This document shows positions 16,868 through 50,243 of a stretch of DNA of 64,000 nucleotides, piece after piece. The position numbers and the translations under genes are program-made. Origin of the DNA: a virus; IMG/VR virus record IMGVR_UViG_3300031834_001450, positions 19,335 through 83,334 of that record; one strand, 5' to 3'. The notes under the pieces were generated by a model. It searched no databases, was not told where the DNA came from, and saw nothing but the letters and a program-made list of their open reading frames with translations. How positions within the stretch are numbered: position 1 is the stretch's first letter; each line of letters starts with the position of its first letter.

Positions 16868-16898
16868 AAAATATAAACTAATTATAAAAAATTAAACT
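16868..16898 (-). promoter_or_regulatory. Recurrent promoter-like motif (copy 1)
   Basis: Read on the minus strand this is GTTTAATTTTTTATAATTAG followed by TTTATATTTTATTAA. The same block (GTTTAAT, about 18 bases, TATA-TAT) recurs upstream of at least eight other minus-strand genes. It overlaps the terminator palindrome of the gene before it. Confidence 0.55.
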
Positions 16899-16931
16899 TT
16901 AAATAAGAATTTAAATTCTTATTTAAAGTTT
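16894..16931 (-). terminator. 38-nt perfect palindrome terminator
   Basis: AAACTTTAAATAAGAATTT (16894-16912) is immediately followed by its exact complement (16913-16931). It lies just downstream of the small membrane protein gene, with T runs on both strands, so it can end transcription in either direction. Confidence 0.7.
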
Positions 16932-16945
16932 TTTTATTATTTAAA

Positions 16946-17239
16946 TTATTTAGTTTTTTTAAACAATAATAAAATAGCTAACAATGTAATAAATTGCCAA
17001 CCATTACTTTTTAGTTCAGTGCTTATAATTGTTATTACATCTTTAGATACTGTAAGAATATATGCTATCATTCCTACTTTACCTGTAAAAATTACATCTA
17101 TTATAAGAGCAGTTACAAAAATTAAAATTAGCGCTCCTTTAAAACTCGCTAATTGTAATGTAATAGAACTTATAATTACATCAAAAACTCCTAAAATCTT
17201 AATACCAAATGCTGTTAACCATGCTACAAGCTTAACCAT
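16946..17239 (-). CDS. Small membrane protein, holin candidate
   Basis: The 97-residue product has a hydrophobic N-terminus (LVAWLTAFGIKILGVFDVII), a central transmembrane helix (GALILIFVTALIIDVIF), a third hydrophobic stretch (WQFITLLAILLLF) and ends in KKTK. Size, two or three membrane segments and a basic tail suit a holin, and the gene is isolated between its own ribosome site (GAGGTAATTTTGT) and a terminator. No lysin is adjacent, so the holin call is only a suggestion. Confidence 0.45.
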   Translation of the reverse strand: MVKLVAWLTAFGIKILGVFDVIISSITLQLASFKGALILIFVTALIIDVIFTGKVGMIAYILTVSKDVITIISTELKSNGWQFITLLAILLLFKKTK

Positions 17240-17344
17240 ACAAAATTACCTCAAAATTAAATTTTAAAACTTAATAATAATTAGTATTTATTTTATTTTA
17301 TTTTAATTTTTAATGAATTATTATAACTTCAATTAAAATAATAA

Positions 17345-18484
17345 TTAACTTCTCCTTCTTATTATATTTCCTTTATTTTGTAATATATCAATTTCAGATA
17401 TTCTTTTTTTAGTTTCATTTTTTTCTTTATTCTGATTAAAAATATCCACTAGAATAAAATCTATTATCTCCTGGTTGACATAGGGATATTTATTTAATTC
17501 GAATAATTTGTTAAGTGCATATTCAACTTGTTGAATACTAATTGTTTTATCTATACCTTGAAGTTGTTGAGTTTGCCAATAGGGAACTTCAATTCCAGAT
17601 AAACTTTTATATATAGTACCTAACATATATCTTAATTTATCTTTTAACTCTATTGTATATTGAATATTAAAAGCTTCTGAATTTCCCTTGAATAAATAAT
17701 TTATACTTGTTATTAAATCACTACTAGATATTATTTCAAGTTCTTTTGTAACTTCATTAACTGTCCATAATTCTGAATAGATAATTCTTTCTAAGTAACT
17801 TAATGCTTGTCTCATACTACCATAACTATTTTCTGCTATAGTTAATAATACATTTATTTTTTCTTCATTATCAATTAATACATTTTCTTGTTTACATATA
17901 AAGTATAATTGTTTAGATATTTCTTCAATAGTATGTGGTTTAAGTTTATAAGTTGTACAACGATTAACAATAGCTTTTGGAATATCTTTCAAATCTCCCA
18001 TTGATCCTAATATCCAATACACATTTTTATAATTTTTTTCAATTGGTTTTAATAAATTATTAAGTGCTGCTTTCGTCTTTGACATTTCTTGTATTTCATC
18101 AAGGCAAAATACTTTAGCATTAGCATTAGAAAAACTTTTAATTTCCGCATTTTCTGCAATTTCTCTAGCAGTATCTATTCCAATATTTGATGAATTGTAT
18201 TCAAAATAAAAATTAGAAATTTTTTCGTCTATAATAGTTTTACAAATATTACAAATATTACAACTATTACCATTTTCATCTTTATCCCTACATAAAATAT
18301 TTTTAGCTATTATTCTTTGTAAGGTCGTCTTACCCACACCAGTATTACCAGTTAATAATAATACTCTTGGTATTGTACTTTCTTTAGATCTTTTTTGTAG
18401 ATCTTTTATTGTTGCTATATGACCAATTACTTCAGATAATTGATTTGGTCTATATTTATTATAGAGTAAAGTATTATTATTCAT
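17345..18484 (-). CDS. DNA polymerase clamp loader, DnaX-like
   Basis: The 379-residue protein has YNKYRPNQLSEVIGH at the start, Walker A GNTGVGKTT (46-54), a zinc knuckle with Cys at 65, 75, 78 and 81, Walker B CLDE (127-130), and a sensor-1 region LGSMGDLKDIPKAIVNRCTTYKL. These are features of gamma/tau clamp-loader ATPases, which load the sliding clamp encoded at 53919-55001. It has the AAA+ domain and collar only, without a tau-like tail. This is a bacterial-type loader rather than a T4 gp44/62 pair. Confidence 0.88.
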   Translation of the reverse strand: MNNNTLLYNKYRPNQLSEVIGHIATIKDLQKRSKESTIPRVLLLTGNTGVGKTTLQRIIAKNILCRDKDENGNSCNICNICKTIIDEKISNFYFEYNSSNIGIDTAREIAENAEIKSFSNANAKVFCLDEIQEMSKTKAALNNLLKPIEKNYKNVYWILGSMGDLKDIPKAIVNRCTTYKLKPHTIEEISKQLYFICKQENVLIDNEEKINVLLTIAENSYGSMRQALSYLERIIYSELWTVNEVTKELEIISSSDLITSINYLFKGNSEAFNIQYTIELKDKLRYMLGTIYKSLSGIEVPYWQTQQLQGIDKTISIQQVEYALNKLFELNKYPYVNQEIIDFILVDIFNQNKEKNETKKRISEIDILQNKGNIIRRRS

Positions 18485-28773: not shown

Positions 28774-29277
28774 TTAACTATAAAATATTTTTATATCTAT
28801 TTCATTTTCATTACAGTAATCTACAATAAATTCAGGTATTCTATGTATTGGCCATTTACAAAAACCTAGTTTTTCTCCTAAATAATATTGTCTATAGGAT
28901 TTTACAGCATCTTTACATTTATATTGTTCTGGCATAGCTAATTTAAATTGAGTAAGTCCTCTAGATTTTAACTTTGATTGGTTAAAATTATGAATTACTT
29001 GTTCACTTTTATGAACTCTACCATATCTATAAGTATATTCTTTACAAAGTCCTAATGTATATATTTTAAGCCATTCAAAATTATCTAAACTTTCTCTCGC
29101 CCATATACAACAAGGATGATTATAATGTGTCCTTTTATAAAGTACTTCTGATTGATCAAAACAATTACATAGAATTTGAACACTCTCCAATATCATTTTC
29201 ACATTATGTTTATTACAAAGCATAATTGAATTATCTATTGGATTTTCATTTAATACAAAAATATTCAAAATATCCAT
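28774..29277 (-). CDS. Conserved phage/virus protein, pyrimidine-dimer-glycosylase-like family
   Basis: The 167-residue protein opens with IFVLNENPIDNSIMLCNKHN and then VKMILESVQILCNCF, and contains YKRTHYNHPCCIWARES, EYTYRYGRVHKSEQVI and MPEQYKCKDAVKSYRQYYLG. This order (D-x-x-P, KH-x-VKM-x-x-E-x-x-Q, H-x-NHP-x-x-W, EY-x-YRYG-x-xH) is a family I recall from cyanophages and large viruses, sometimes annotated as pyrimidine dimer glycosylase. That enzymatic label is not proven; the family match itself looks firm. Confidence 0.6.
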   Translation of the reverse strand: MDILNIFVLNENPIDNSIMLCNKHNVKMILESVQILCNCFDQSEVLYKRTHYNHPCCIWARESLDNFEWLKIYTLGLCKEYTYRYGRVHKSEQVIHNFNQSKLKSRGLTQFKLAMPEQYKCKDAVKSYRQYYLGEKLGFCKWPIHRIPEFIVDYCNENEIDIKIFYS

Positions 29278-32362: not shown

Positions 32363-32397
32363 TGATAATATATAAACTAATTATAAAAATTTAAATT
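32363..32397 (-). promoter_or_regulatory. Recurrent promoter-like motif (copy 5)
   Basis: Minus strand: ATTTAAATTTTTATAATTAG then TTTATATATTATCAAA, about 20 bases upstream of the polymerase start. A diverged copy, with ATTTAAAT in place of GTTTAAT. Confidence 0.45.
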
Positions 32398-32819
32398 TTT
32401 TCTACTTCAATCCCTCTATTTTTTAAAAAATCTATTCCAGAAGAATCTCTATATTCTTCTCTATAAAAAACTTTTTTAATACCAGCAGATAGAATTTGTA
32501 AACTACAATTAAAACATGGAGATAATGTTATATAGATTGTTGATCCATTAGGAGAAATACCCTGTTTTACTGCTTTATGTATGGCATTAAGTTCTGAATG
32601 CATTACTTCTTTTCTAGTAACTAATTCTCCCAGTTCATTAATATATTCACATTCATTGTCCATTCCCATGGGCATACCATTATATCCATATGCTATAATA
32701 TTATGATCTTTAACAATAACGCATCCAACCTTATTACGAGTTGCATAAGACATCTGAGATGTATTAACTGCAATAGACATATATAATTGATCATATTGTT
32801 TTATTCGTTCCTTATTCAT
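32391..32819 (-). CDS. dCMP deaminase
   Basis: The 142-residue protein (ATG 32819, overlapping the previous stop; an upstream TTG at 32831 is less likely) has the zinc-deaminase motifs HSELNAIHKA and SPCFNCSLQIL, with a GYNGMPMGMDNECEY substrate loop typical of dCMP deaminases. It converts dCMP to dUMP, feeding thymidylate or modified-pyrimidine synthesis. It ends the operon that includes the thymidylate-synthase-like gene, glycosyltransferase and sugar-nucleotide genes. Confidence 0.85.
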   Translation of the reverse strand: MNKERIKQYDQLYMSIAVNTSQMSYATRNKVGCVIVKDHNIIAYGYNGMPMGMDNECEYINELGELVTRKEVMHSELNAIHKAVKQGISPNGSTIYITLSPCFNCSLQILSAGIKKVFYREEYRDSSGIDFLKNRGIEVEKI

Positions 32820-33531
32820 TATAACTCTCAACTATTTTTTGTAATAAATCAAAATGTCTATCATATATATGAAAAGATCCAAAAAAGAAATTAATAATTC
32901 CCATTTGTAAAGTTGGATATATTTCTTTTAATTCTAAATATAATTTATTATAAACATAACAATGCCAATAAAAATCATTAAAAAAGCCATAAATTCCATC
33001 GCAACTTCTTTGATCTACAAAATATATCAATGAATTATTTCTAATAAAACATTGAACACTATTGGTACATACAAAATCTGACATTCCATTTCTATTATAA
33101 TCTATATGCATAGATGGTCTTGTATATAACATTAATGCTCTTCTTGATAGAGGATTAAATATTAATTCTTGTTTACAATTATTAAATTGATTATAATTCT
33201 CTTCAGAAAAAATTAAATAACCATAATTAGAATTTATTTCTTTTTTTTCATCTTTAGTACAAACATCGTTCCATATTTTAATATCATCAACATAATCAAT
33301 AATAGATAATGATTCTGAAAGATACCAATTTAATTCTTTTTCTACATATTGAATAGAAGTTTTTTTAATTTCATTAAAATTTAAAATTGATTGTACTGGA
33401 TTTAATCCTTCTATTTTACATCCAATAATTTCAACAACTTTAATACCAGTTTTATCTATTACAAACTTTTTATTTTGTATATCACTATATAATTTTTTAA
33501 AACTCGGTAACAATATTTGTTCATTAGTCAT
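32812..33531 (-). CDS. Thymidylate-synthase-fold enzyme, probable dCMP-type hydroxymethylase
   Basis: The 239-residue protein aligns with ThyA through its core: KELNWYL (66-71), IKIWND (84-89), NPLSRRALML (126-135), catalytic Cys155, Gln160, QRS-D (174-178), Gly182 and HIY (221-223). At the position of E. coli Asn177, which selects dUMP, it has Asp186 (in FFND). T4 dCMP hydroxymethylase has Asp at this site, so I infer a dCMP substrate and a hydroxymethyl or methyl product. The usual Cys-His is Cys-Thr here. ATGA overlap couples it to the glycosyltransferase, supporting a base-modification route. Confidence 0.7.
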   Translation of the reverse strand: MTNEQILLPSFKKLYSDIQNKKFVIDKTGIKVVEIIGCKIEGLNPVQSILNFNEIKKTSIQYVEKELNWYLSESLSIIDYVDDIKIWNDVCTKDEKKEINSNYGYLIFSEENYNQFNNCKQELIFNPLSRRALMLYTRPSMHIDYNRNGMSDFVCTNSVQCFIRNNSLIYFVDQRSCDGIYGFFNDFYWHCYVYNKLYLELKEIYPTLQMGIINFFFGSFHIYDRHFDLLQKIVESYNE

Positions 33532-34736
33532 TTTAATAATCCTTCAATATCTTTAATTACATTATTTGAAATTTCTTCAAAAGCTCCTTGATTATTTCTA
33601 ATTTTAATTTCTTTAAATTCATTTGTATTAATATAATCTAAAGAATCTAGTGCATAATTTAATTTTTGTACTATGCTATCAACTATAGGTGAATCACCAT
33701 CATGATCGATATAATAAGGATACTTTTTACCACCTCTTCTAGCATATTCAAAAACCATAGGCATTATAGTAATATTATTACAATAAAGAGACTCCACTTG
33801 ACTACACCCCCCCATTCTCTCAAGAATAAATCCATGAAAGCTAATATCTGCTTTCCATAATAATTCAAAGTATTCTTGTCTATTAAGAGATCCTTCTTTA
33901 TAAATATAGAGAGGTTTAACTAATTCTTTTAATTCATCTATGGAATATTTTCCAGATGGATTTGTAAATATAACTTGAAAATCTTTTCTTTTTTCATAAA
34001 GTTTATTTACTGCTTCAATAAATTCTATGTGATGAGTATAGTTTATACCACTTAATCTATTGAGAAATAATATAGTTTTCTTTTCAAATTTTTCTTCTAA
34101 TTTATAAGTATCAGCCTCTTTTTTAGAAAATCCAAAATCCCAAATAAAACTTTTCTTTTTAATTTGATTTATTTTATTTGATTTAAAAACTAATTTAGCA
34201 TTATTAAAAAAAGCTTCTTTTGTTGATTTACAAGTAAAAATACAAAGATCAGAACATTCATATCCATCAAATTGTCTATATTGATAACTTATTTCAGTAG
34301 CCACTTTTGCTTCATTAATTTCAGGAGTATCCATCCAATAACAACAAGAAATTAACTTTGTTTCTTTTGATTTTTGAAATAAATATGTTTTTATATTTCT
34401 AGAAAGTTCTATAATATTATTCCATACAATATCAATCTTTGGAAGTTCTTTAAAAATAGAATCAAATTCAATAATATTAAAATGTTGTCGTATTGTAAAT
34501 GCATCAATAGGATAAGTATAGGGAATAAAAATAACATTTTTGTGTTTAAAGATATTATCATAAGATTTTATGTCAGCAAAATCTTTAAGTGGTGCAATAA
34601 GAATATAAACTGTCCAATTTATCTTTTCAACAATTTCAGTTAAAATCCCAACTAGCATATTAATGTTACTATCAGCGCTAATCCATTTATTTTCATTATT
34701 ATAAATACTTTGTTGCAAAATATATAAAATATTCAT
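33528..34736 (-). CDS. Glycosyltransferase, GT-B-like
   Basis: The 402-residue protein has a two-lobed GT-B look. The C-terminal lobe starts at KTILFLNRLSGINYTHHIEF, continues with FQVIFTNPSGKYS, YIYKEGSLNRQEYFELLWKA, and the donor-binding stretch HGFILERMGGCSQVESLYCN near 310-330. The N-terminal lobe carries WNNIIELSRNIKT and YWMDTPEINEA. It overlaps its neighbours on both sides by four bases. Given the coupled hydroxymethylase-like gene, DNA glycosylation is the attractive role; protein or surface glycan modification remains possible. Confidence 0.6.
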   Translation of the reverse strand: MNILYILQQSIYNNENKWISADSNINMLVGILTEIVEKINWTVYILIAPLKDFADIKSYDNIFKHKNVIFIPYTYPIDAFTIRQHFNIIEFDSIFKELPKIDIVWNNIIELSRNIKTYLFQKSKETKLISCCYWMDTPEINEAKVATEISYQYRQFDGYECSDLCIFTCKSTKEAFFNNAKLVFKSNKINQIKKKSFIWDFGFSKKEADTYKLEEKFEKKTILFLNRLSGINYTHHIEFIEAVNKLYEKRKDFQVIFTNPSGKYSIDELKELVKPLYIYKEGSLNRQEYFELLWKADISFHGFILERMGGCSQVESLYCNNITIMPMVFEYARRGGKKYPYYIDHDGDSPIVDSIVQKLNYALDSLDYINTNEFKEIKIRNNQGAFEEISNNVIKDIEGLLK

Positions 34737-35419
34737 TTATTATCTCCTATTATATTTTTTAAATGCGCTTCACTTCTATTTCTTAATTTAATTTTATGTT
34801 TTCTAAGTATTTTGCTAATAGGCCCACCATAGACATTATATCTTTTTCCTATTGTATAAGGTGATTCTTTTAAATTTAAATATGAAAAAATTATTTCTTT
34901 TTCTTGCTCATCTGTAAAAAATTTACCACTAGCTTCTTGTAAATTTCTTTTATGCACATTATTTTCTTTTAATATTCTTTCAATAACCGCACCACTAACA
35001 TTAAATATTTTTCCTATATTTTTTAAAGATATTTTGTCATTATACATATTTAAAATAGATATAGTTTGTGATTGAGAAAATTGAATTTTACTTCTTCCAG
35101 GACAATCTGTATTATCTGGATCCTGTTTATTATACCCAAATTCACTATTTTTTGTTTTATAAAAGTCTATATAATATTTTTCCTTTTGTCTAAGAGTATC
35201 TTCATTATATTCTGATAGTAATTCGATAATATAAAAATTAAAATTTTCTTTGCCGTATTTTAATAATGAAAATCTTAAATGTTTATTTATGGCCTCATTT
35301 TTTAAAAATAATTGCATATGATCTTTTAACCTTGACTGAACATATTTAGAACTTCCAATATATTTTTTGTTATTTATTTTATTTTCAATACAATATATTC
35401 CAGGTTGTACAAATAGCAT
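34733..35419 (-). CDS. GIY-YIG endonuclease, probable homing type
   Basis: The 228-residue product has the GIY-YIG nuclease domain at the N-terminus (PGIYCIENKINNKKYIGSS, SRLKDHMQLF, KYGKENFNFYIIELL) and a C-terminal DNA-binding part with two HTH-like repeats (LKNIGKIFNVSGAVIERIL, YTIGKRYNVYGGPISKIL). This is the free-standing Seg-type homing endonuclease layout. It interrupts the base-modification operon but keeps the ATGA coupling, as invading homing genes often settle without breaking neighbours. Confidence 0.8.
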   Translation of the reverse strand: MLFVQPGIYCIENKINNKKYIGSSKYVQSRLKDHMQLFLKNEAINKHLRFSLLKYGKENFNFYIIELLSEYNEDTLRQKEKYYIDFYKTKNSEFGYNKQDPDNTDCPGRSKIQFSQSQTISILNMYNDKISLKNIGKIFNVSGAVIERILKENNVHKRNLQEASGKFFTDEQEKEIIFSYLNLKESPYTIGKRYNVYGGPISKILRKHKIKLRNRSEAHLKNIIGDNK

Positions 35420-35920
35420 TTATTCTCCTATGAATTCTTTTATTTTTAATATTTGATTTTCTAAATTTTCATCTGTAGTATCTAATATAAGATATTCACA
35501 TTTTGTTTTTTTAAGAAATTCAATATAATATTGTTTTATTAATTTTATTTTATTTTGATTAATAACATCATCAATATATATTTTATATTCTTTTTTAAAA
35601 CAATAAATAAGTTTTAATTTCAACTTAGAAAACTCTTCATCTATTTGCCATATAAAATTTTCATTAAATTGTCTATCTAATGCTAAGGAATATGAAAAAT
35701 GACAAGCAATTCCACGATCCATAATTAAATTAGTTGGAACTTGTTTTAAATAATCTATAAAAAATCTACTTTCATATTCTACTGAAAGATCAATTTCATT
35801 ATTTTTAAAATATTCTTTTGTATTATTATTTCTATAATATGAAATATTTAATAACTTAGATATTATTTGAGCAATTGTTGTTTTTGCTGTTCTATCAGGA
35901 CCAATAAATTGAATCAACAT
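35420..35920 (-). CDS. Deoxynucleoside monophosphate kinase-like protein
   Basis: The 166-residue protein has a P-loop FIGPDRTAKTTIA (5-17), a central NLIMDRGIACHFSYSLALDR segment like the DR-x-x-x-S-x-x-A-Y lid of thymidylate kinases, and a C-terminal ILDTTDENLENQI strand-helix. In phages with modified pyrimidines a dedicated kinase (T4 gp1) phosphorylates the modified dNMP. Its position inside the operon fits such a role. The substrate cannot be read from the sequence. Confidence 0.6.
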   Translation of the reverse strand: MLIQFIGPDRTAKTTIAQIISKLLNISYYRNNNTKEYFKNNEIDLSVEYESRFFIDYLKQVPTNLIMDRGIACHFSYSLALDRQFNENFIWQIDEEFSKLKLKLIYCFKKEYKIYIDDVINQNKIKLIKQYYIEFLKKTKCEYLILDTTDENLENQILKIKEFIGE

Positions 35921-35931
35921 TAAATTTTTCC

Positions 35932-36621
35932 TTATATTTTTTCTAAAAAATAAATCACATCTCTACTTAATTTATAATTATTCCAAGCAAATAAAACTCG
36001 TTGAATTTCAATTGGTAAAATAGTAAACTCTTCTATTGCACAATTATTTAAATAATTATCATTTGACATACTCCATCCATGTACATCTAATATTTTGAGT
36101 CCACTTTGATTAAAACAATCTTCAAGTTCTTTATAAGTATATTCATAATTATGATATTTTGGCCAATTTACAATATTTGATATTTGATTTGGTGTACTTA
36201 TAATTAAATATTTAAAAGGTAAATTACAAATTTTATTAAAAATTTCTATTCCTTTTTCTTTTGAATTAAAATGTTCAATTACATCTAATAATAATAAACA
36301 ATCAATTTTATTTTTTAAAATAATTTCTTGAATAGTTAAAAATACATTTTCTGTTTTATAAAAAATTCCATTACTACAAAGATTATCATATATAATTGAA
36401 TCTCTATAATCAATACCAAAATAAGAAATAATTTTATTTGATTCAATTAATAATTTATTAATATATGCTGTATCACAACCCACATCAATAATTGATTCAA
36501 TATTATTTTTAATAATAAATTCTCTAACAGATTGATCTTTAAATAATTTACTTATATATCCAGGATCAAGATCTATTTTAGATAATTGTTGTCTTAATGA
36601 TGACATATCAACAATAGTCAT
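35932..36621 (-). CDS. SAM-dependent methyltransferase, class I
   Basis: The 229-residue protein contains the SAM-binding sequence IIDVGCDTAYINKLLIES near 42-59, an acidic loop YFGIDYRD, and LLLLDVIEHFNSKEKG, the post-I/motif II signature of small-molecule methyltransferases. The C-terminal part (YTYKELEDCFNQSGLKILDV) is also usual. It overlaps the epimerase gene by four bases, so it may methylate a sugar or nucleotide-sugar made by this operon. DNA-methylase target motifs (such as DPPY) are absent. Confidence 0.75.
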   Translation of the reverse strand: MTIVDMSSLRQQLSKIDLDPGYISKLFKDQSVREFIIKNNIESIIDVGCDTAYINKLLIESNKIISYFGIDYRDSIIYDNLCSNGIFYKTENVFLTIQEIILKNKIDCLLLLDVIEHFNSKEKGIEIFNKICNLPFKYLIISTPNQISNIVNWPKYHNYEYTYKELEDCFNQSGLKILDVHGWSMSNDNYLNNCAIEEFTILPIEIQRVLFAWNNYKLSRDVIYFLEKI

Positions 36622-37646
36622 ATTTTTTCTAAATTTACCATTTCAATTACCCATGGTATAATTTCATCTAATGCTTTATTTAATGAAGTTTCTGCTTTAA
36701 ATCCTAATAACTTTTCTGCTTTATCAATAGAAGGAATTCGGCATTGTACATCATATTCATACGGGTTATCTGAAATATAATTAAACTCTACATTAGAATT
36801 TAATCTATCCCAAATAATTTTTGCAAGTTCTAATACAGTATAACTTTCAGGGGTACTTAAATTAAAATCAGTATTTAATGCATTTTCATTAAAAATGGCT
36901 TGATAAATCCCTTCTGCTAAATCTCCTGCATATGTATAATGGCGTATTTGATTTCCTTTTCCAAGAATATGAAGCGGGTTTTGACCTTTAATTATTTTTT
37001 GTATAAGATCAGGTATTACATGGCTAAGAGCTAATTTAATATTACCAGACATAACTACTGTTTCTGTCATAGCTGCTTGTTCCCCAATTCCAGCTGCATT
37101 AAATGGTCTTACAATAGTATATGGAAGTTTATATTGTTCATATGCACCTTTAACAAAATATTCAATTGCAAGTTTTTGAAATCCATATGTTGATAATGGA
37201 GGTGGGCAAATCAATTGATCTCCTTCTTTTGAAGGAAAAGTTTCTGTTGATTCAAAAACCATACTTGAAGATATTGCAATTATTTTTTTAAGAAATCCTT
37301 CTTTATGCGCTTTAATTGCAATATCAAAAATAGATGCGGTAAGTCTTTCATTTTCAGCAAGTAAATCATAAGCCAATTCATGAAAGAAACTTATACCACC
37401 AATCCACGCAGCTCCATGCACAATATAATCTATTTTATTAGAAAAAATTATATTTTCTAAAATATCTTTATTTTTTGCATCACCATAAAAATGAAAATAA
37501 TTTGGATGTTTATCAAAACTTTTTTCTAATGGACCATATTTCCAATCATTATCTACTCCATAAACAATATGACCTTCATTTAATAATTTTTGTATTGAAT
37601 ATCCTGCAATAAAACCTCGATCACCAGTCCAAAATATTTTAGCCAT
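36618..37646 (-). CDS. NAD-dependent sugar epimerase/reductase (GDP-fucose-synthase-like SDR)
   Basis: I choose ATG 37646, with GGAGA six bases upstream, over the TTG at 37658. The 342-residue product has the Rossmann start TGDRGFIAGYSIQKLL, VHGAAWIGGISFFHELAYDL (as in GDP-fucose synthase and related epimerases), the active-site SSSMVFE and YGFQK (Tyr-x-x-x-Lys), and RPFNAAGIGEQ. It acts on a nucleotide-activated sugar. It overlaps the dehydrogenase stop and the methyltransferase start, so these three are expressed together. Confidence 0.8.
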   Translation of the reverse strand: MAKIFWTGDRGFIAGYSIQKLLNEGHIVYGVDNDWKYGPLEKSFDKHPNYFHFYGDAKNKDILENIIFSNKIDYIVHGAAWIGGISFFHELAYDLLAENERLTASIFDIAIKAHKEGFLKKIIAISSSMVFESTETFPSKEGDQLICPPPLSTYGFQKLAIEYFVKGAYEQYKLPYTIVRPFNAAGIGEQAAMTETVVMSGNIKLALSHVIPDLIQKIIKGQNPLHILGKGNQIRHYTYAGDLAEGIYQAIFNENALNTDFNLSTPESYTVLELAKIIWDRLNSNVEFNYISDNPYEYDVQCRIPSIDKAEKLLGFKAETSLNKALDEIIPWVIEMVNLEKI

Positions 37647-38878
37647 TAATTTCTCCAATTATTATATAAATTTTCTTTTAATATATTCCATCCATCAATT
37701 ACTATTTTATCATTAAATTCTTCTTTAGTAAAAGTAAGATATTCTTTATGATTTATTGCTATAATAATAATATCACATTGTTTAACTTCTTCTATTGAAT
37801 AATTTATAAAAATCATATTATTATATTTATCATTATATTCTCCTAACGGAAGATTAGGTTCATTTATTTTAATTTGTTCTGGTAAATTACGTTCTAAATA
37901 TCTAATTAATTTAGGTGTTAAATTATCTCTAGTATCATCAGTATTACTTTTAAATGTAAATCCAAAAATTCCAATAGTTTTATTTTTAATATCATTTTGA
38001 ATTAAATCAACATAAAATTTTGGTGTAAATTCATTAATTTTGTAAGCTTGTAATATTAAATCTGTTTGTGGAAAATTTTCATTAATCATTCCCCAATCTT
38101 TCGTTAAACATGTGCCTTTTGCAAAACCAGGAGTCAATAATCCTTTATTTCTATCATATCCAGGATTCATTAAAGAAAATAATTTATATATATCAACTCC
38201 AAATGATTGTGACATATATGAAAAATAATTAGGAATTGCCATATTTATGTAACGATAAATATTTGTAAATAATTTACTTAATTCAGCTTCAATAAAAGTT
38301 GATTTAAAGATTTGAATTCCTAAAATAGAAAAAATATTTTTTGCAAGATCAAAACTAATATCATCTTTTACTCCAATAACTTGAGGTAATTCTAATAATT
38401 CTTTATATGCTTCGCCTTCAACTATTCTTTCAGGACACATTGCTAAATAAAAATCTTTACCAAGAATATAGTTTGTTTTATTTTCAATAATATTTTTGAT
38501 ATACTCAGTTGTATTAGGTGCAACTGTTGATCTAAGAATAATTAATTTATTTTTAATATCTATTTTAGAAATTAAATCATTAATTACGAATGTTACTTGA
38601 GATAAATCTGTTTCAATATGTTCTCCTAGTGGAGTTCCAACAGTTAGTATATATGCTTTTGCATCAGGGTAATTTTCATATTTTGAATTATAAATTGTAA
38701 AAGTTTCTTTAACTAATTCATCATATCCTGGTTCATAAAATGGCATTTTATTATTTTTAATACCCTCTATCATTTCATCATTAATATCTACACCACAAAC
38801 ATTTAACTTTTTTTCTCGTAAAGATAATGCCAATGGAAGACCAACTCTTCCACATCCTATTACACAAATATCATACAT
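37646..38878 (-). CDS. UDP-sugar 6-dehydrogenase
   Basis: The 410-residue protein follows the UDP-glucose/GDP-mannose dehydrogenase layout: ICVIGCGRVGLPLALSL (4-20), TVGTPLGEH, STVAPNTTEYI, CPERIVEGEAYKEL (a WbpA-type mark), the catalytic Cys in FAKGTCLTKDWGMI near 260, and IGIFGFTFKSNTDDTRDN. The enzyme oxidises C6 of a nucleotide sugar to a uronic acid using NAD. With the epimerase and methyltransferase downstream it could build an unusual activated sugar for the glycosyltransferase. Confidence 0.85.
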   Translation of the reverse strand: MYDICVIGCGRVGLPLALSLREKKLNVCGVDINDEMIEGIKNNKMPFYEPGYDELVKETFTIYNSKYENYPDAKAYILTVGTPLGEHIETDLSQVTFVINDLISKIDIKNKLIILRSTVAPNTTEYIKNIIENKTNYILGKDFYLAMCPERIVEGEAYKELLELPQVIGVKDDISFDLAKNIFSILGIQIFKSTFIEAELSKLFTNIYRYINMAIPNYFSYMSQSFGVDIYKLFSLMNPGYDRNKGLLTPGFAKGTCLTKDWGMINENFPQTDLILQAYKINEFTPKFYVDLIQNDIKNKTIGIFGFTFKSNTDDTRDNLTPKLIRYLERNLPEQIKINEPNLPLGEYNDKYNNMIFINYSIEEVKQCDIIIIAINHKEYLTFTKEEFNDKIVIDGWNILKENLYNNWRN

Positions 38879-38900
38879 ATATTAACTCCATTTTTATTTT

Positions 38901-39395
38901 CTATTTTATTCCCGTACTTCCAAAACCACCACTTCCTCTTGAAGATTCTTTATCTATATAAAGTTCTGAAAATTCTACTTCATATGGTAAAAGATAAGAA
39001 ATAGGAATTAGTATAAATTGAATTATTTTTTCATTTTGTTCTATAACCACTATTTCATTAGAAGAATTAATAAGAGAAATATGTATTTCACCTAAATAAT
39101 CTTCATCTATAGTTTCTGCTGCTTTTATTAAACCTCTTCTTGAACTTATTCCAGATTTATTAAATGCGTTTAACATAAATCCATCTGGTATATTTGCATG
39201 AATACCTGATGGAATTAAACATCTTTCATTTGGATTTAGGATAATTGCTGTATTATTTATTTGAATATTTGAATTTTTTAATTTAAAATCTAATAAAAAT
39301 TGTGAATCAAATACAGGAATAAAAAAATCTATTCCAGCAGATTTTGGAGTTGATCTAATTGGACTTTTTACCTCTCTAATTTTCGAAAATTTCAT
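38901..39395 (-). CDS. dut: dUTPase 1 (trimeric)
   Basis: The 164-residue protein has all five motifs: TPKSAGIDFFIP (I), NKSGISSRRGL (II), ETIDEDYLGEIHISLIN (III), EQNEKIIQFILIPI (IV) and SSRGSGGFGSTG (V). It hydrolyses dUTP to dUMP, which feeds thymidylate-like enzymes and keeps uracil out of DNA. It is longer than minimal dUTPases because of an insert (FKLKNSNIQINN) before motif II. A second paralogue is encoded at 41673-42107. Confidence 0.88.
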   Translation of the reverse strand: MKFSKIREVKSPIRSTPKSAGIDFFIPVFDSQFLLDFKLKNSNIQINNTAIILNPNERCLIPSGIHANIPDGFMLNAFNKSGISSRRGLIKAAETIDEDYLGEIHISLINSSNEIVVIEQNEKIIQFILIPISYLLPYEVEFSELYIDKESSRGSGGFGSTGIK

Positions 39396-39723: not shown

Positions 39724-39768
39724 AATATATTTTTATATATATAAAATTTTTATAAAAAATTAAACTTT
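39724..39768 (-). promoter_or_regulatory. Recurrent promoter-like motif (copy 6)
   Basis: Minus strand: GTTTAATTTTTTATAAAAAT then TTTATATATATAAAAATATA, upstream of the 94-residue gene and probably of the whole 39.7-32.4 kb sugar/base-modification operon. Confidence 0.55.
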
Positions 39769-39962
39769 TAATTTTCTTTTATTGCATTCGCTGGACATTC
39801 AAAATTTATAATACAAGTTTTACAATTTTTACATTTAGTTTGATCTATAGTACTTTGTAAATATCCTTTCTTAATTATATTTAAATGATCTATTTGAATA
39901 GCTTCAAAAGGACATTCTTCTACACACATCCCACACGAAATACAGTCTTCTATAATTCTCAA
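39768..39962 (-). CDS. 2[4Fe-4S] ferredoxin
   Basis: The 64-residue product has two cluster motifs, CISCGMCVEECP and CKNCKTCIINFECP, the second with a longer gap before its last Cys, as in clostridial-type ferredoxins. It transfers electrons in anaerobic metabolism. A plausible client is the radical-SAM activase of the class III ribonucleotide reductase encoded at 43-46 kb. Its start overlaps the stop of the methylase gene. Confidence 0.88.
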   Translation of the reverse strand: MRIIEDCISCGMCVEECPFEAIQIDHLNIIKKGYLQSTIDQTKCKNCKTCIINFECPANAIKEN

Positions 39963-40786
39963 TCTATTTCTCCTATTTTATAATAGCAAATTTCATTTAA
40001 TACGGTTTCTCTTTTTCTATTAGGACTTATATTTTTTAATTTATTCAAATAGATTTTATTTTTAAAATATTTATTACCTATTTCATTCTCTATATCAAAA
40101 TAAATAATATCATTGGAAATAAAATCTAATTGTTTAAACATTTCTTCCAAATCCTGTATACTCCATCCATTAGAATTAACCATTTTATTTATTTGATAGG
40201 GGGGATCTAAAATATATAAACTATTTTTTAAATTTATAATATTAAAAGCATTATTTGATATAAATAATTTATCTTTAATGAGTTTAAAGTTTTTTAAAGA
40301 ATATTCAAAATCTCTACATGTATAATTACTAATAAACCTGTTCCCAAAACTTTGATTAAATCCATTAGGTCCAAATCTATACATAGTATTTATACAACTA
40401 TTTACTAAAATTATTAAACCAAATGCTTCTTCTTTAGTCTGCTTTTTCCATAAAATATTATTAAAATAATCTCTAAAATTATAATATCCATTATAAGTTG
40501 AAACATTATATTGAAGATTATTTACGTAAGTAGTAAACTCACCTTCATCTATTAAGAATAGATGTTCATAAATATTTAATAAATTAATATCTATTTCTGA
40601 AACATAATAACTATTAAATTGTTTTTGTAAATTTAATAATATTTGTGCAGAACCTAAAAAAGGTTCAACATAAATATTTTTATTTGATTTTTTTACAAGA
40701 TCATTTATCATATCTAAATGAATAAGTTTATTACCCATATATTGGAATAGTCTAGATATAATTTGTTTTCTTTGTAAAAAACTCAA
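39959..40786 (-). CDS. DNA adenine methyltransferase (Dam/D12 class)
   Basis: The 275-residue protein has FQYMGNKLIHLDMI at the start, the SAM motif YVEPFLGSAQILLNL near 39-53, a Dam-type SEIDINLLNIY and the catalytic DPPYQ near 185-189. D12 enzymes methylate N6 of adenine, commonly GATC, to evade restriction or mark replication. The target-recognition part (roughly 80-165) is diverged, so the site is unknown. It overlaps neighbours by four bases on both sides. Confidence 0.82.
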   Translation of the reverse strand: MSFLQRKQIISRLFQYMGNKLIHLDMINDLVKKSNKNIYVEPFLGSAQILLNLQKQFNSYYVSEIDINLLNIYEHLFLIDEGEFTTYVNNLQYNVSTYNGYYNFRDYFNNILWKKQTKEEAFGLIILVNSCINTMYRFGPNGFNQSFGNRFISNYTCRDFEYSLKNFKLIKDKLFISNNAFNIINLKNSLYILDPPYQINKMVNSNGWSIQDLEEMFKQLDFISNDIIYFDIENEIGNKYFKNKIYLNKLKNISPNRKRETVLNEICYYKIGEID

Positions 40787-41514: not shown

Positions 41515-41673
41515 TTATTCCTTTATTTTATTAAATTTTGGACAAACTATTTGTACAACTAAATGAGATTGTTTACATCTTTCTTTACATTTTTTACATA
41601 ATTCTGAAAAATTAGACCAATACCATTTACTATATTGTTTATCTGACATTGAATTAATATTTATATTTTCCAT
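41515..41673 (-). CDS. 52-residue Cys-rich protein
   Basis: The ATG at 41673 overlaps the dUTPase stop (TAATG). The product SKWYWSNFSELCKKCKERCK continues with QSHLVVQIVCPKFNK; CKKCKERC plus a later Cys could bind metal. The overlap and clean composition support a real gene. Confidence 0.55.
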   Translation of the reverse strand: MENININSMSDKQYSKWYWSNFSELCKKCKERCKQSHLVVQIVCPKFNKIKE

Positions 41674-42107
41674 TATTTTGTACCTGTTGACCCAAAACCA
41701 CCTCTTGGATTATCTGTCATATGTTCTACTTCTGTAATAAGTATTTGAGGCATTTTTTCTACTACTCGAAATTGACAAACTCTATCATTCTTTTTTATAT
41801 AAGATTCTCTTGTTGCATATATTGGCATTTTTACAATATCAGATTCTCCACAAAACGATTCATCTAAAATTCCCATAGAATTTATTTGTAAAATTCCCCA
41901 AATTTTAAAAGTAGAAGATCTTGGTAATATATGCATTTCATATCCAGGAGGAACTTTAACAGATACACCTAAATCAATAAGTCTAAAATCACCTTGTTCT
42001 ATATGATAATCATAAGCACTTCTTAAATCTATCCAATCTCCTTTCTCTATTTTTTCTATTTTAATTAAATCTAATACATGATATTTTACTTTTAATTCAA
42101 GAATCAT
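41673..42107 (-). CDS. dUTPase 2 / dUTPase-like
   Basis: The 144-residue protein has the dUTPase fold motifs: GDWIDLRSAYD, LPRSSTFKIWGI (motif II variant), NSMGILDESFCGESDIVKM (motif III with SF-C-GE), DRVCQFRVV (IV) and PRGGFGSTG (V). It is clearly different from dUTPase 1, with CG in motif III and W-G in motif II. It may have altered specificity, for example for dCTP or a modified dNTP, or act as a signalling dUTPase. The arm motif is intact, so it is probably active. Confidence 0.78.
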   Translation of the reverse strand: MILELKVKYHVLDLIKIEKIEKGDWIDLRSAYDYHIEQGDFRLIDLGVSVKVPPGYEMHILPRSSTFKIWGILQINSMGILDESFCGESDIVKMPIYATRESYIKKNDRVCQFRVVEKMPQILITEVEHMTDNPRGGFGSTGTK

Positions 42108-43258: not shown

Positions 43259-45268
43259 TTAATTCACAATTTCACGATCAAAATCTCCATTACTAAATTC
43301 TCTTCTTATTGTATGATCATAAATTTGTTTAAATGTTGACATATCACTTACATCTACGAAAAAACCTACTACTCTAGCAATTTTCTTTTTAATTAATTTA
43401 CCACATTTAGCACAAGTCTCTCTATTACCTATAATTACATGTCCATCAACACACTGACAAAAAGTTCCAGTTATTGCAAAATGTTCTAAATTACATTCTA
43501 TTGCATAATTAATAAGTTTTTCAGCTTGTTTAGATGTAATGTGTTCCCCTGTATTTATATGTGATATACCTCCACCAGTTAAACTATTAAGATATTTACC
43601 ATCTATTTCCATTTTTTCCCATATTGTATGCTTTTGATCAGTTAGTGGCACAAATTGATTAGAGTAAATATTGTAAGGAATATTTTTTTCACCAAATAAC
43701 AATTTATCTATTCTTGGTAATCTATGAGACATAGATTCTCCAGGTACTTGTTCAATATTAAAAGTACATCCAATAAAATTTTCATTATTTGAATTTACCT
43801 CATTATTAAAATAATCAAGAAATTCTTTTAATATATCTATATTTTTTAATTGTTTAAATTTATTTTTTAAAATTTCCTCTGCTTCTACATATCCTAATAT
43901 TCCAAGAGTAGAAAACATTCTTTCTAACCGAATCCAACCAATTTGAAGAAATAATTGAGAATGTTTAGAATCTTCTAATAGTTGTTTATGAGAATATAAT
44001 ATTTTTTTAGCATTATTTGTATGTACTTTTATTAATTCAAAAAATTCTTCATATGTTTTACTCATTAATGCAAATCTAGCAAAATTTAATGTTAGTACTC
44101 TATGACTACCAAGAGATATAGATCCACCTGCACCAAAACTATTTGCTTGAGCAGCTAATTCTATCATTTCTATAGAATTAATTAGGCGGCAACAAGATGC
44201 AATTTTATTTCCTTCACTTACAAAAACATTATATCTATAAATATCTTTTTTACAAACAGATTTAAGAAATGATTTATCTTCTATAACCCATTTTCCTTCT
44301 TTATCTCTTTTCTTAGATATATTTAAAGTCGCGATTGGAAAACGATAAGGAATTCCATCATTCATTGGATCCCCTTTATCGAAAAATTCCATAAAAATAT
44401 TTTGTAATTCTAAAATAAAATCTATCACTGTATCTAAATCATATGGATAATATCCATCTTCTTGCATATAATACCAATTATATTCTTCTTTAACAAGTTT
44501 ATTAAGTTTTTCTCTATCAAATAAAGATATATTTGTAAATGGGCATTCAACTCCTCCACTTCTACTTAAAGAATTAAAGCCATGTATTACTTTTTGATAT
44601 TGATTTTTTATATATTTTCTATAAATGGGATCTTGTAAATCTTCTATTTTTTTATTTTCTTTTAATAAAAGTAGATGCGCAATATCAAGAAAAAAAGTTC
44701 CTACTGCAATTGCACCAGCAAGCGCGTTTGACATTTGATGAATAATTTCATTAAGAAGAGAAGTATATGAATCTAATCTTTTAACAGGACTAGAAGGAAG
44801 TTGACCAAAGTTTTTACCCATAGTAACTAATTTACTTGCATCAAAAGCCCAACAATAAGGAACCATAATATTTGTACTATCTGATAAAGCTAAAGTATAA
44901 TCATACATCAAAGATGTTAAATGTTTTGCTTCTTTCTTACCATATATTTCAGCCATTTTACGATAAAGAAATCTATATCCTGTTATTTTTTCAAAAGGAG
45001 TCATAGATTCTTTCATAATTCCTTTTATTGTTTTTGTTCCTTTATTACTATTATCATCCCAACTTTCATCATTCAATTTACCTATTACTAATTTTTCTAT
45101 TTTATCTATAACAGAAAAATCTTCTTTTCTCATCCCGTGTATTTTAAGAATTTGATCTGTAATTACCTCACTTTCTTCTACTTCAATACCATATGTTTTT
45201 ATAAGTTGATTTTGTAAAGATTTATACACTGAATTTATTGCTTGATTTATTGATGATTTTTCAAACAT
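43259..45268 (-). CDS. nrdD: Anaerobic (class III) ribonucleotide reductase
   Basis: The 669-residue protein has class III features: helical core with NALAGAIAVGTFFLD, SRSGGVECPFTN near 235-246, a CCRLINS stretch at 359-365 and the SFGAGGSISLGSHRVLTLNF substrate region. The C-terminus carries a zinc site (CQC ... CAKCG) and the radical-bearing RVVGFF with Gly635. It makes dNTPs from NTPs without oxygen, so host and infection are anaerobic. The nucleotide-binding ATP cone is reduced to the first 50 residues. The activase gene lies 65 bases upstream. Confidence 0.9.
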   Translation of the reverse strand: MFEKSSINQAINSVYKSLQNQLIKTYGIEVEESEVITDQILKIHGMRKEDFSVIDKIEKLVIGKLNDESWDDNSNKGTKTIKGIMKESMTPFEKITGYRFLYRKMAEIYGKKEAKHLTSLMYDYTLALSDSTNIMVPYCWAFDASKLVTMGKNFGQLPSSPVKRLDSYTSLLNEIIHQMSNALAGAIAVGTFFLDIAHLLLLKENKKIEDLQDPIYRKYIKNQYQKVIHGFNSLSRSGGVECPFTNISLFDREKLNKLVKEEYNWYYMQEDGYYPYDLDTVIDFILELQNIFMEFFDKGDPMNDGIPYRFPIATLNISKKRDKEGKWVIEDKSFLKSVCKKDIYRYNVFVSEGNKIASCCRLINSIEMIELAAQANSFGAGGSISLGSHRVLTLNFARFALMSKTYEEFFELIKVHTNNAKKILYSHKQLLEDSKHSQLFLQIGWIRLERMFSTLGILGYVEAEEILKNKFKQLKNIDILKEFLDYFNNEVNSNNENFIGCTFNIEQVPGESMSHRLPRIDKLLFGEKNIPYNIYSNQFVPLTDQKHTIWEKMEIDGKYLNSLTGGGISHINTGEHITSKQAEKLINYAIECNLEHFAITGTFCQCVDGHVIIGNRETCAKCGKLIKKKIARVVGFFVDVSDMSTFKQIYDHTIRREFSNGDFDREIVN

Positions 45269-45333: not shown

Positions 45334-45876
45334 TTAAAAATACATCCTACCATCACGAGTACAAAGATTAAAAATAGAATTATATATTTTTTGATTTGTA
45401 GAAGCAAGTTGAAAATAATGTTCAGTTTTCATTGGTTCTTGTTTTAATTCTTCTTGATATTCTCCAGTTTTAAGATATGTAAAACCAAGTATATTTTTTC
45501 TTTTTACTTGTTCAATGGAATCTCCAGTATAAAGACAAATATCAAATAAATTACCATAACTTCTTATAAATAATTTTGTAAATGCTGCATTTTTTTCATA
45601 TAAGAAATCTGCTCCTCCTAATACAAGTTTATTTGTATTATTTTTATAACAAAAAGTATATAATTCAGCATATAACTGTTTTACTGTGAATGTTTTAATA
45701 GTAAGATTTAAATTTTCAGGAATTAAATTATAATCATGTAATATAGTATTATGACATCCTTTACAATAGTGATTACATCCAATACAACTAAGATATGCAC
45801 TATAACTATCATTATCAGGATAATCTAACCAAGTACCTGAAAAAGGATATAAAATTTTTATTACTGGGTTAATCAT
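45334..45876 (-). CDS. nrdG: Anaerobic ribonucleotide reductase activase (radical SAM)
   Basis: The 180-residue protein has the radical-SAM motif CIGCNHYCKGCHNTI (CxxxCxxC) after the start VIKILYPFSGTWLDYPDN, and LVLGGADFLYEKN, the G-G-D/E segment that binds SAM. It generates the glycyl radical on NrdD, using electrons probably supplied by a ferredoxin such as that at 39768-39962. Length is close to bacterial NrdG. Confidence 0.88.
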   Translation of the reverse strand: MINPVIKILYPFSGTWLDYPDNDSYSAYLSCIGCNHYCKGCHNTILHDYNLIPENLNLTIKTFTVKQLYAELYTFCYKNNTNKLVLGGADFLYEKNAAFTKLFIRSYGNLFDICLYTGDSIEQVKRKNILGFTYLKTGEYQEELKQEPMKTEHYFQLASTNQKIYNSIFNLCTRDGRMYF

Positions 45877-49082: not shown

Positions 49083-50243
49083 TTAACATTTTCTTGAAAT
49101 AAGTAATTGTTCTAAAAAATATTCCATTATTATTTTATATAATTTATTTCCTAATACTAAATCTTCACTTTCAGATTCTATACTTGGATTATCATTTACT
49201 TCTATTATATAACAAATATTATTTTTAACTTTTAAATCAACACCATAAAATCCATTACCAATATGTTTAGTTGTTTTTAACGCAGTATTTATTATTTCTA
49301 ATGGAACATTTTTTATTTTAAATGTTTTAACTTCACCCTCTACTTTTTTTAAAGAATCCCAATTTACAATTTGCCAATGATTTTTTACCATAAAATATTT
49401 ACATGCATAAATAACTTTATTATTTAATATTCCTATTCTCCAATCATAATTAGTTTTAATAAATTCTTGCGCGATTATAAGATCAGATTTTTGTAAAAAT
49501 AAAAATATATTTTCATAATATTGTTCTTTATTATTTATTTTTATTACTCCTTGACAAAAAGAACTATCGGGTAATTTTAATACAAAAGGAAAATTAAAAA
49601 GATTTAATACATTATCAATATTATATTTACTTATTATTATTGTTTTAGGTTGTTGTATATTGTGGTATTTTAATAATTCAGTCAAATATACTTTATTTGT
49701 ACATCTAACAATTGATTTAGGGTCATCAATTACAATTATATTATTATTATATGCAAGTTTTGCAATTTTAAAAGTATGATCTTCTATACTTGTTGTTTCT
49801 CTAATAAATAAAGCATCAAATTTATTTAATCTATTTATATCAGCTTTTGAAATTATTTCTACGTTAAATCCAATACTTCTTCCTTGTTCTACAAATTTTT
49901 CAATTGCAGTATTATCTGAAGGAGGTATTTTTTCTTCTTTATTTAAAAGAATTGCTAAATTAAAAGAGTTACTTTTTCTTTTATTTTTATTTTTATTTTT
50001 ATTTATTTTTAATATATTATCTATACTTGGATAAACAATATGATTTCTTGCTAAAGCAATTAATGATACATAATATCCTATAGATTGATACGTATAACTC
50101 TTACAAAAATTAAAAATTATTATTTTTTCATTTTTATTTCTTTCAAAATTAAATAAATAATCTTTAGCTACTATTATTTTAGCAAAAGAAATATTGAATT
50201 TTAATTCATTAATATCTTCAACAACTATATAATTTAACATCAT
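49083..50243 (-). CDS. RLAN plus RimK-like ATP-grasp ligase
   Basis: The 386-residue protein starts with an RLAN-type domain: IIVAKDYLFNFERN, IIFNFCKSYTYQSIGYYVSL followed by IALARNHIVYPSI. The second half is ATP-grasp: FPFVLKLPDSSFCQGVIKIN, LIIAQEFIKTNYDWRIGIL, CKYFMVKNHWQIVNW, GVDLKVKNNICYIIEVNDNP. RimK-type enzymes attach amino acids (often Glu) to a carboxyl end. Bacterial RLAN/ATP-grasp proteins are predicted to make peptide modifications. A phage copy is unusual. The target could be a ribosomal protein, the neighbouring lipoprotein or a small metabolite. Confidence 0.78.
   Translation of the reverse strand: MMLNYIVVEDINELKFNISFAKIIVAKDYLFNFERNKNEKIIIFNFCKSYTYQSIGYYVSLIALARNHIVYPSIDNILKINKNKNKNKRKSNSFNLAILLNKEEKIPPSDNTAIEKFVEQGRSIGFNVEIISKADINRLNKFDALFIRETTSIEDHTFKIAKLAYNNNIIVIDDPKSIVRCTNKVYLTELLKYHNIQQPKTIIISKYNIDNVLNLFNFPFVLKLPDSSFCQGVIKINNKEQYYENIFLFLQKSDLIIAQEFIKTNYDWRIGILNNKVIYACKYFMVKNHWQIVNWDSLKKVEGEVKTFKIKNVPLEIINTALKTTKHIGNGFYGVDLKVKNNICYIIEVNDNPSIESESEDLVLGNKLYKIIMEYFLEQLLISRKC

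Follow-up and report, generated by a model that had tools for sequence, protein, structure and literature searches.

A conserved phage gene cassette that may produce glycosylated 5-hydroxymethylcytosine DNA from a donor sugar begun by C6 oxidation

The window analysed here is a stretch of 64,000 nucleotides from an uncultured phage (a metagenomic contig, IMG/VR record IMGVR_UViG_3300031834_001450). Positions 32391-39395 carry nine open reading frames on the minus strand, none with an internal stop and most of them overlapping or abutting. From the highest coordinate downwards they are:

38901..39395, minus strand: dUTPase (PF00692, 2e-16; phrog_135)
37646..38878, minus strand: UDP-sugar 6-dehydrogenase (UGD), UGD/UDP-ManNAc-dehydrogenase superfamily (PF03721/PF00984/PF03720; TIGR03026, 4e-80)
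36618..37646, minus strand: NAD-dependent SDR nucleotide-sugar epimerase (PF01370, 4e-34)
35932..36621, minus strand: SAM-dependent class-I methyltransferase, Hen1/UbiG-like (PF13489, weak)
35420..35920, minus strand: P-loop nucleotide kinase, thymidylate-kinase-like (phrog_761, 5e-5, and TIGR00041, both weak)
34733..35419, minus strand: GIY-YIG homing-endonuclease-like gene (PF01541, 2e-10; phrog_7168)
33528..34736, minus strand: putative GT-B glycosyltransferase (GT), 402 aa (AF2 model, GT4-like structure matches)
32812..33531, minus strand: predicted dCMP hydroxymethylase, T4 gp42 clade (PF00303, phrog_160; PDB 1b49, 4e-52)
32391..32819, minus strand: dCMP deaminase, likely ATG start 32819 (PF00383; phrog_174, 2e-52)

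The preliminary description of this DNA as a coupled nine-gene operon was confirmed. The dUTPase and UGD genes are separated by 22 nt, the UGD and epimerase genes share a TAATG (1-nt overlap) in which the likely true start of the epimerase is the ATG at 37646, and the epimerase and methyltransferase genes overlap by an ATGA (4 nt). A gap of 11 nt separates the methyltransferase gene from the kinase gene, which abuts the GIY-YIG gene (gap 0), while the GIY-YIG/GT and GT/ThyA-like junctions are both 4-nt ATGA overlaps and the ThyA-like and dCMP deaminase genes overlap by 8 nt. No tRNA genes were found in the window and no ThyX in its source record, and a DNA-level search of phage records with the whole operon returned no matches. 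The GIY-YIG gene had been listed with the pathway genes, a membership which was rejected because the gene is missing between kinase and GT in two related lineages (L004 and L008); by this comparison it is a homing-endonuclease-like insertion and a passenger.

The ThyA-fold protein had been proposed to be a hydroxymethylase-type enzyme, and the sequence bears this out. It is 43-45% identical to T6 gp42 (45% over 96%), it matches the dCMP hydroxymethylase 1b49 in the PDB, and in a phylogenetic tree it forms one clade with T6 gp42 (support 100/99), outside which RB69 ORF048c and canonical thymidylate synthases (TS) each lie on a long branch. The protein keeps C155, E66 (the Glu60 equivalent), D186, S176 and R130/R131, and D186 is the equivalent of the cytosine-specifying Asp179. 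Within the ThyA family, Asp at this position marks cytosine-using members and Asn uracil-using ones (PMC5175136). As judged by these comparisons the window protein is a relative of the T4 gp42-type dCMP hydroxymethylases, the modification is very likely hydroxymethyl rather than another C5-hydroxylation, and there is a strong presumption that the acceptor base is 5-hydroxymethylcytosine (hmC). The earlier proposal of hydroxymethyl-pyrimidine DNA thus stands as far as a gp42-type enzyme, a GT and UDP-sugar genes lie in one conserved cassette, but the base would be cytosine-type and not a generic pyrimidine. The reading of the gene as the phage's plain thymidylate synthase was rejected because the residue is Asp-type, the protein falls in the gp42 clade and L004 has a separate canonical TS. 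As L004 carries this second, Asn-type enzyme besides its cassette ThyA-family gene, the cassette enzyme of that lineage would be a dedicated modifier.

The glycosyltransferase gave no matches in sequence searches of Pfam, PHROG, NCBIfam and the PDB, nor in single-sequence and profile searches of phage records and the PDB, and showed no sequence match to the T4 AGT and BGT/PF09198 families (Pfam, PHROG). Its AF2 model (pLDDT 81, pTM 0.80) has a two-Rossmann GT-B fold, for which the nearest Foldseek matches were MshA, PimA, BshA and glycogen synthase. Going solely by this predicted structure, the 402-aa protein would be a glycosyltransferase with a GT-B fold, closest to the retaining enzymes of GT4 type, so that the original glycosyltransferase call survives at the level of fold, with no sequence-family match. 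Enzymes with these nearest folds have small molecules, lipids or glucans as substrates, which speaks against a DNA-glycosyltransferase reading. Members of the GT family were found in six virus lineages (the window, L004, L008, L009, L010 and L024), are 48-57% identical, and have E306, G309, G310, C311 and E315 invariant; the resulting ExxGGCxxxE motif (E306-x8-E315) is one residue longer than the GT4-type E-x7-E. No relatives were detected in 84,980 bacterial and archaeal species genomes by tblastn and pattern scans, which reach fairly close relatives only. The window GT is put forward as a candidate DNA (hmC) glycosyltransferase, from a family found in phages only within the searches made.

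At least five distantly related relatives of the window phage carry the cassette, and its recurrence in five other virus lineages indicates that it is not a chance assembly. In 6/6 GT-bearing lineages the GT is accompanied by a UGD, an SDR epimerase, a kinase and an Asp-type ThyA-family gene; the co-occurrence of ThyA-like and GT genes, which the preliminary description had suggested checking, was therefore upheld, and among the lineages found the GT never occurs without a ThyA-family gene. The GT/ThyA-like ATGA overlap is present in the window, L004 and L008, with ThyA proteins just 34-50% identical to the window's. Among 33 other gp42-bearing viral records the GT was found in none and a UGD above cut-off in one (Fisher p = 2e-6, with records that are not all independent). 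Sugar genes without a ThyA gene, named beforehand as evidence against the proposal, do occur in L013 and L014, but in those two lineages a large glycan-type cluster lacking the cassette GT holds the epimerase together with a short UGD. In another lineage (L003), whose gp42 is 54% identical, the equivalent cassette is ordered dUTPase-GT-MT-kinase-gp42-deaminase and holds a gene of the T4 beta-glucosyltransferase family (PF09198), by which analogy gp42-type cassettes of this sort very probably glycosylate DNA. For the window cassette, too, we consider glycosylation of DNA bases highly probable. Genes for dUTPase near gp42/ThyA were also found in L003, L004, L005 and L010.

Taken together, the operon probably produces hmC DNA that is glycosylated from a phage-made donor, the synthesis of which starts by C6 oxidation. 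In the proposed pathway the gp42-type enzyme would convert dCMP to 5-hydroxymethyl-dCMP, and the kinase, a candidate hm-dCMP (dNMP) kinase of weak family assignment whose gene is present in all six GT-bearing cassettes, would form the diphosphate, the triphosphate then being incorporated by the phage DNA polymerase I. The UGD would oxidise C6 of a host UDP-hexose, most likely UDP-glucose or else UDP-HexNAc, the SDR enzyme would epimerise the product or, less likely, decarboxylate it to a pentose, and we infer that the GT-B enzyme would transfer the sugar to the hydroxymethyl group on DNA. For the window phage and L008, O-methylation at a vicinal diol of the sugar is a possible further step, carried out by the Hen1/UbiG-like methyltransferase. 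A dUTPase keeps uracil out of the nucleotide pool, and together with the dCMP deaminase it would balance the pyrimidine pool.

The UGD contains all three Pfam domains and has K202, N206, C257, K260 and D261 invariant, with the catalytic Cys257 inside a GTCLTKD motif, and is 56-58% identical to the cassette UGDs of L004 and L008. It is nearest to UDP-ManNAc dehydrogenases (nearest PDB entries 4r16 and 3ojl), which makes its substrate ambiguous. The UGDs of L009 and L024 are short and non-orthologous to it, yet are paired with the same epimerase family, and the L009 replacement is nearest to UDP-glucose 6-dehydrogenase. The sugar appears to pass through an oxidised intermediate, probably acidic, of a sort that is not known so far from DNA of this kind; a final sugar that is itself C6-oxidised and uronic-type is the likeliest of the products considered, with about an even chance.

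The methyltransferase was previously placed in the pathway, and this was only partly sustained: the gene is conserved in L008 but missing from L004, L010 and L024, and in L009 an FkbM methyltransferase of a different family takes its place, so that on present comparisons it is an optional, swappable accessory. D113-x-x-E116-H117 and H157 align with the metal-binding ExxEH...H motif of Hen1 (first position E to D), and the protein is a candidate metal-dependent sugar O-methyltransferase; the NCBIfam Hen1 score is far under the cut-off, and the fold search indicated no substrate. It may instead have no relation to the sugar, being a Hen1-like RNA 2'-O-methyltransferase or other passenger, a role that would leave the main reading of the other genes untouched. 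Bacterial Hen1 domains are its closest PDB sequences, Hen1 also ranks high in the fold search, and three cassettes do without the gene, whereas its retention in L008 and the FkbM gene in L009 are as an exchangeable tailoring step predicts, and no adjoining Pnkp/ligase RNA-repair partner was seen. We rate such an unrelated role a little below an even chance. Methylation of the sugar can be suggested only tentatively, and a widespread phage pathway placing an O-methylated hexuronic acid on hmC, with a charged or charge-masked sugar and a previously undescribed DNA GT family, is doubtful as a whole.

The epimerase has the motifs Y158xxxK162 and SSSM (numbered from a TTG start at 37658) and is 55-66% identical to the cassette epimerases of L004, L008, L009 and L010. 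Were UDP-glucuronate the product of the UGD and the SDR enzyme a UDP-xylose-synthase-like decarboxylase, xylosyl- or arabinosyl-hmC would result, an outcome akin to RB69/Thanatos-type pentosylation. UDP-glucuronate decarboxylases (UXS1) are the second-best PDB group for the epimerase profile, NCBIfam returns a UDP-4-keto-pentose/UDP-xylose synthase match, and phages with pentosylated cytosines are known. However, galE/LegB models outscore that match, and the Glu of the UXS/ArnA TSE motif is Met in every cassette epimerase, which is not the residue expected of a UXS. Sequence is no reliable separator of epimerase and decarboxylase activity (PMC7984243), and we hold the pentose outcome to be unlikely, if far from negligible.

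A third possibility is that the base is a C5-hydroxylated cytosine of the RB69/NP kind, glycosylated directly on the ring oxygen. The RB69/NP ThyA-family enzyme makes 5-hydroxy-dCMP (PMC13390438), and the cassette ThyA-like proteins of L008, L009, L010 and L024 are Asp-type but outside the gp42 clade, so that theirs could be another C5-hydroxylated dCMP. For the window, where identity to RB69 ORF048c is only 21% against the 43-45% to T6 gp42, the RB69 protein falling outside the well-supported clade, an RB69-type 5-hydroxy-dCMP synthase was rejected and the alternative is improbable. Least likely, and very improbable, is that the sugar genes and GT act on phage or host surface glycans (LPS/capsule-like) beside an independent gp42 gene, as the epimerase-UGD pairs of L013/L014 and the GT4 folds might suggest, given that in six lineages the GT always shares a cassette with an Asp-type ThyA-family gene (with a 4-nt overlap in three), that genes for a flippase, polymerase or priming transferase were not seen and that L003 has its T4 beta-GT-family gene.

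Should glycosylated hmC made with a phage-supplied donor be correct, the cassette would represent at least one more phage route to glycosylated DNA, with a C6-oxidised donor sugar and a transferase family without sequence relatives in the databases searched. The response of such DNA to restriction enzymes, CRISPR nucleases, type IV enzymes and DNA glycosylases is predicted to differ from that of T4 glucosyl-hmC, and the cassette could supply new enzymes for hmC labelling. Otherwise similar cassettes have exchanged their GT, dehydrogenase and methyltransferase genes, which suggests sugar-module swapping as hosts evolve modification-sensing defences.

Like the glucosyl-hmC systems of T4, T2 and T6 (gp42, gp1 and alpha/beta-GT), the window has a gp42-clade enzyme (45%), a nucleotide kinase and a GT-B transferase, with dCMP deaminase and dUTPase nearby in both. 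T4 draws on host UDP-glucose, whereas the window donor would come from a phage UGD and epimerase; the window GT is outside the AGT/BGT families by sequence, and an optional methyltransferase is added. New relative to T4-type systems, on gene content, is a gp42-type DNA-glycosylation cassette with a phage sugar supply beginning at UDP-sugar C6 oxidation. In the arabinosyl-cytosine phages RB69/NP (Mosigvirus), phage sugar-donor genes likewise adjoin ThyA-family and thymidylate-kinase-like genes, but the RB69 donor genes are of isomerase, NTP-transferase and sugar-kinase types with no UGD in the cluster. Shewanella phage Thanatos, with deoxypentosyl-cytosine, resembles our proposal in a non-glucose sugar, a gp42-like gene and a phage-made UDP-sugar, its donor being attributed to a UDP-xylose pyrophosphorylase (PMC12838424) instead of a UGD and epimerase. 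Bacillus phage SP-15, whose DNA bears glucuronolactone (PMC5977210), also has a UDP-glucose dehydrogenase (24% identical to the window UGD) and GTs in its base-modification cluster, but differs in a dihydroxypentyluracil base, a phosphodiester-linked sugar and the lack of gp42.

The cultured Maribacter phages Molly and Colly share the order UGD, epimerase, 'beta glucosyl transferase', ThyA, although the GT is different (473 aa), the UGD and epimerase are 32% and 27% identical, and the D179 position of ThyA is occupied by Asn (dUMP-type), which makes a different base likely. With an Asn-type ThyA and another GT they were rejected as direct relatives and kept as an analogue, and the words 'glucosyl' and 'thymidylate' do not occur in the main text of the Molly paper. 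The presence of an analogous cassette in cultured phages makes the wider idea directly open to testing. By description, Yersinia phage YerA41 is also similar in carrying a complex glycan on DNA bases and several GT genes, its glycan of about 1 kDa being on thymidine (PMC9023294).

The operon proposed earlier was confirmed as nine intact, closely packed minus-strand genes (32391-39395), with overlaps of 1-8 nt at 5 of 8 junctions. Its ThyA-like protein (32812..33531) has a 45% identity to T6 gp42 over 96% of its length, and the T4 dCMP hydroxymethylase was its only strong PDB match (4e-52). A tree of 13 ThyA-family proteins placed it in one clade with T6 gp42 and proteins of four other virus records (L003, L004, L005 and L025; support 100/99), outside which fell canonical thymidylate synthase and the RB69 5-hydroxy-dCMP-type enzyme (the latter 21% identical to the window protein). 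It was reported that a diagnostic residue is Asp in cytosine users of this family and Asn in uracil users (PMC5175136). The window protein carries Asp186 at this position, as well as deoxy-type Ser and Arg where the ribonucleotide enzyme MilA differs. By sequence the protein is a dCMP hydroxymethylase, and this homology suggests that it would hydroxymethylate its substrate.

The 402-aa protein encoded by the overlapping gene (33528..34736) gave no match in any sequence library searched. Six lineages (the window, L004, L008, L009, L010 and L024) were found to carry its family, with members 48-57% identical to the window protein; an identical copy on a 10-kb contig, L002, was counted with the window lineage. 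The AlphaFold model, built from five members with pLDDT 81 and pTM 0.80, shows a GT-B fold, its nearest folds are retaining GT4/GT5/GT20-type enzymes, and its BFVD neighbours include glycosyltransferases of Arthrobacter phages and SP-15. Furthermore, a GT4-like E-x8-E segment is invariant across the family alignment. Judged by its predicted structure, the protein is a glycosyltransferase (GT). No bacterial or archaeal relatives were found in a pattern scan of one genome each of 84,980 species, whose reach is limited to fairly close relatives.

In all six lineages the GT gene is clustered with those for a UDP-sugar 6-dehydrogenase (UGD), the same SDR epimerase, a P-loop nucleotide kinase and a ThyA-family protein, and dCMP deaminase lies within a few kb. 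The ThyA-family gene is of the Asp type in 6/6, and its association with the GT, noted previously in the window, extends to the relatives; the two genes share an ATGA overlap in the window, L004 and L008. Since L004 has a canonical thymidylate synthase of the Asn type at another locus, its cassette enzyme is, on sequence grounds, a dedicated base modifier. Among 33 other gp42-bearing viral records the GT family was found in none and a UGD above the cut-off in one; the difference in UGD presence (6/6 vs 1/33) gives p = 2e-6, which is indicative and not exact, as some of these records are fragmentary or related to one another. The GIY-YIG gene between kinase and GT, formerly listed among the genes of the operon, is a passenger, as the L004 and L008 kinase genes overlap that of the GT with no gene in between. 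Four of the six cassettes contain a gene of the uracil-DNA glycosylase superfamily:
L004, 7622-8218
L008, 8260-8823
L010, 11146-11739
L024, 9131-9709

Two other kinds of locus bear on whether these cassettes act on DNA:
L003: one run of dUTPase, PF09198 protein, CofD-like/HAD fusion, methyltransferase, nucleotidyltransferase, kinase, gp42 and dCMP deaminase; the PF09198, CofD-like/HAD, methyltransferase and nucleotidyltransferase genes beside gp42 are at 5063-9989
L013 and L014, about 3000-17700: large glycan-type clusters with radical SAM, transketolase-like, several GT, epimerase and heptose-type genes

The best single argument that they would do so is L003, because there a known DNA-glucosyltransferase family, that of T4 beta-glucosyltransferase (PF09198, 1e-18), occupies the same cassette type. 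The L003 gp42 is 54% identical to the window protein, and the locus may encode a further module, distinct from that of the window, that places a sugar or phospho-sugar on 5-hydroxymethylcytosine (hmC). Relatives keeping the sugar genes without a ThyA-like gene, which the preliminary description had held to speak against DNA modification, were found in part: the L013 and L014 clusters pair the cassette epimerase with a short UGD, and have neither a ThyA gene nor the cassette GT. The UDP-sugar thus also serves other glycans, and the sugar genes by themselves do not carry the claim of DNA glycosylation, which is based on the GT and the linkage of its gene to the gp42-type one.

The window UGD has all domains and catalytic residues, and among characterised enzymes it is closest to UDP-ManNAc dehydrogenases. 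The L009 dehydrogenase is short, non-orthologous and nearest to UDP-glucose 6-dehydrogenase, and the L009 epimerase is 63% identical to that of the window. As the same epimerase works beside interchangeable dehydrogenases, the cassettes may share one UDP-uronate, most simply UDP-glucuronate. The chances that the final sugar is of a uronic type are about even. Its main rival is a pentose, against which stands the absence of the UDP-xylose synthase active-site Glu from the cassette epimerase; this favours epimerase over decarboxylase activity, two activities not reliably told apart by sequence (PMC7984243).

The methyltransferase assigned to the sugar pathway is present and kept in L008 (47% identity), beyond which no homologues were found in the other records searched; an FkbM-type enzyme replaces it in L009, and the L004, L010 and L024 cassettes have none. 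Methylation would therefore be an optional, exchangeable step at best. In the PDB, the sequences most similar to the window enzyme are those of bacterial Hen1 domains (8e-7), with whose metal ligands D113, E116, H117 and H157 align. Hen1 and UbiG are metal-dependent and methylate one hydroxyl of a vicinal diol, a chemistry that would suit a sugar diol.

Glycosylation of hmC by phages is known. T4 makes glucosyl-hmC with host UDP-glucose, and RB69/NP and Thanatos attach pentoses, with donors from other routes; SP-15 has a UDP-glucose dehydrogenase and attaches glucuronolactone to a uracil derivative, and YerA41 carries an oligosaccharide on thymidine. The cultured Maribacter phages Molly and Colly have an analogous UGD-epimerase-GT-ThyA cassette, but with an Asn-type ThyA:
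Molly_1 (L018), 12001-16760: UGD, epimerase, 'beta glucosyl transferase', Asn-type ThyA

Molly_1 is a candidate for glycosylated hydroxymethyluracil DNA; in the main text of its isolation paper these genes go unmentioned. The open-access literature searched (subscription papers being outside its scope) yielded no account of an hmC cassette that combines UGD and epimerase with this GT. Two genes near the gp42-clade gene of L005 make that phage a candidate for carbamoylated hydroxymethylcytosine DNA:
L005, 6439-8139: NodU/CmcH-type carbamoyltransferase
L005, 9992-10720: deoxynucleoside-kinase-like gene

The window covers 64 kb of an 83,334-base record. With its baseplate wedge and tape measure genes, the phage is a tailed one, probably with a contractile-type tail, and has a GC content of 24%. 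It also has PolA, UvsX, SbcC-like, clamp-loader and anaerobic ribonucleotide reductase genes, and the reductase, with its activase-like gene, makes an anaerobic host probable. Features outside the operon were:
28774-29277 (-): T4 endonuclease V-like pyrimidine-dimer glycosylase (PF03013)
39768-39962 (-): small 2x[4Fe-4S] ferredoxin, adjoining the operon
39959-40786 (-): Dam-family adenine-N6 methyltransferase, overlapping the start of the ferredoxin gene
41673-42107 (-): second dUTPase-family gene (PF00692, 3e-11)
43259-45268 (-): anaerobic ribonucleotide reductase
45334-45876 (-): 4Fe-4S activase-like gene
49083-50243 (-): RimK/ATP-grasp-like, from a weak match to phrog_2599 (ribosomal protein S6 glutaminyl transferase)
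62878-63975 (-): transposase (phrog_506, 8e-123), close to the record end

With the other dUTPase at 38901-39395, one of the two dUTPase-family proteins might use dCTP, like T4 gp56.
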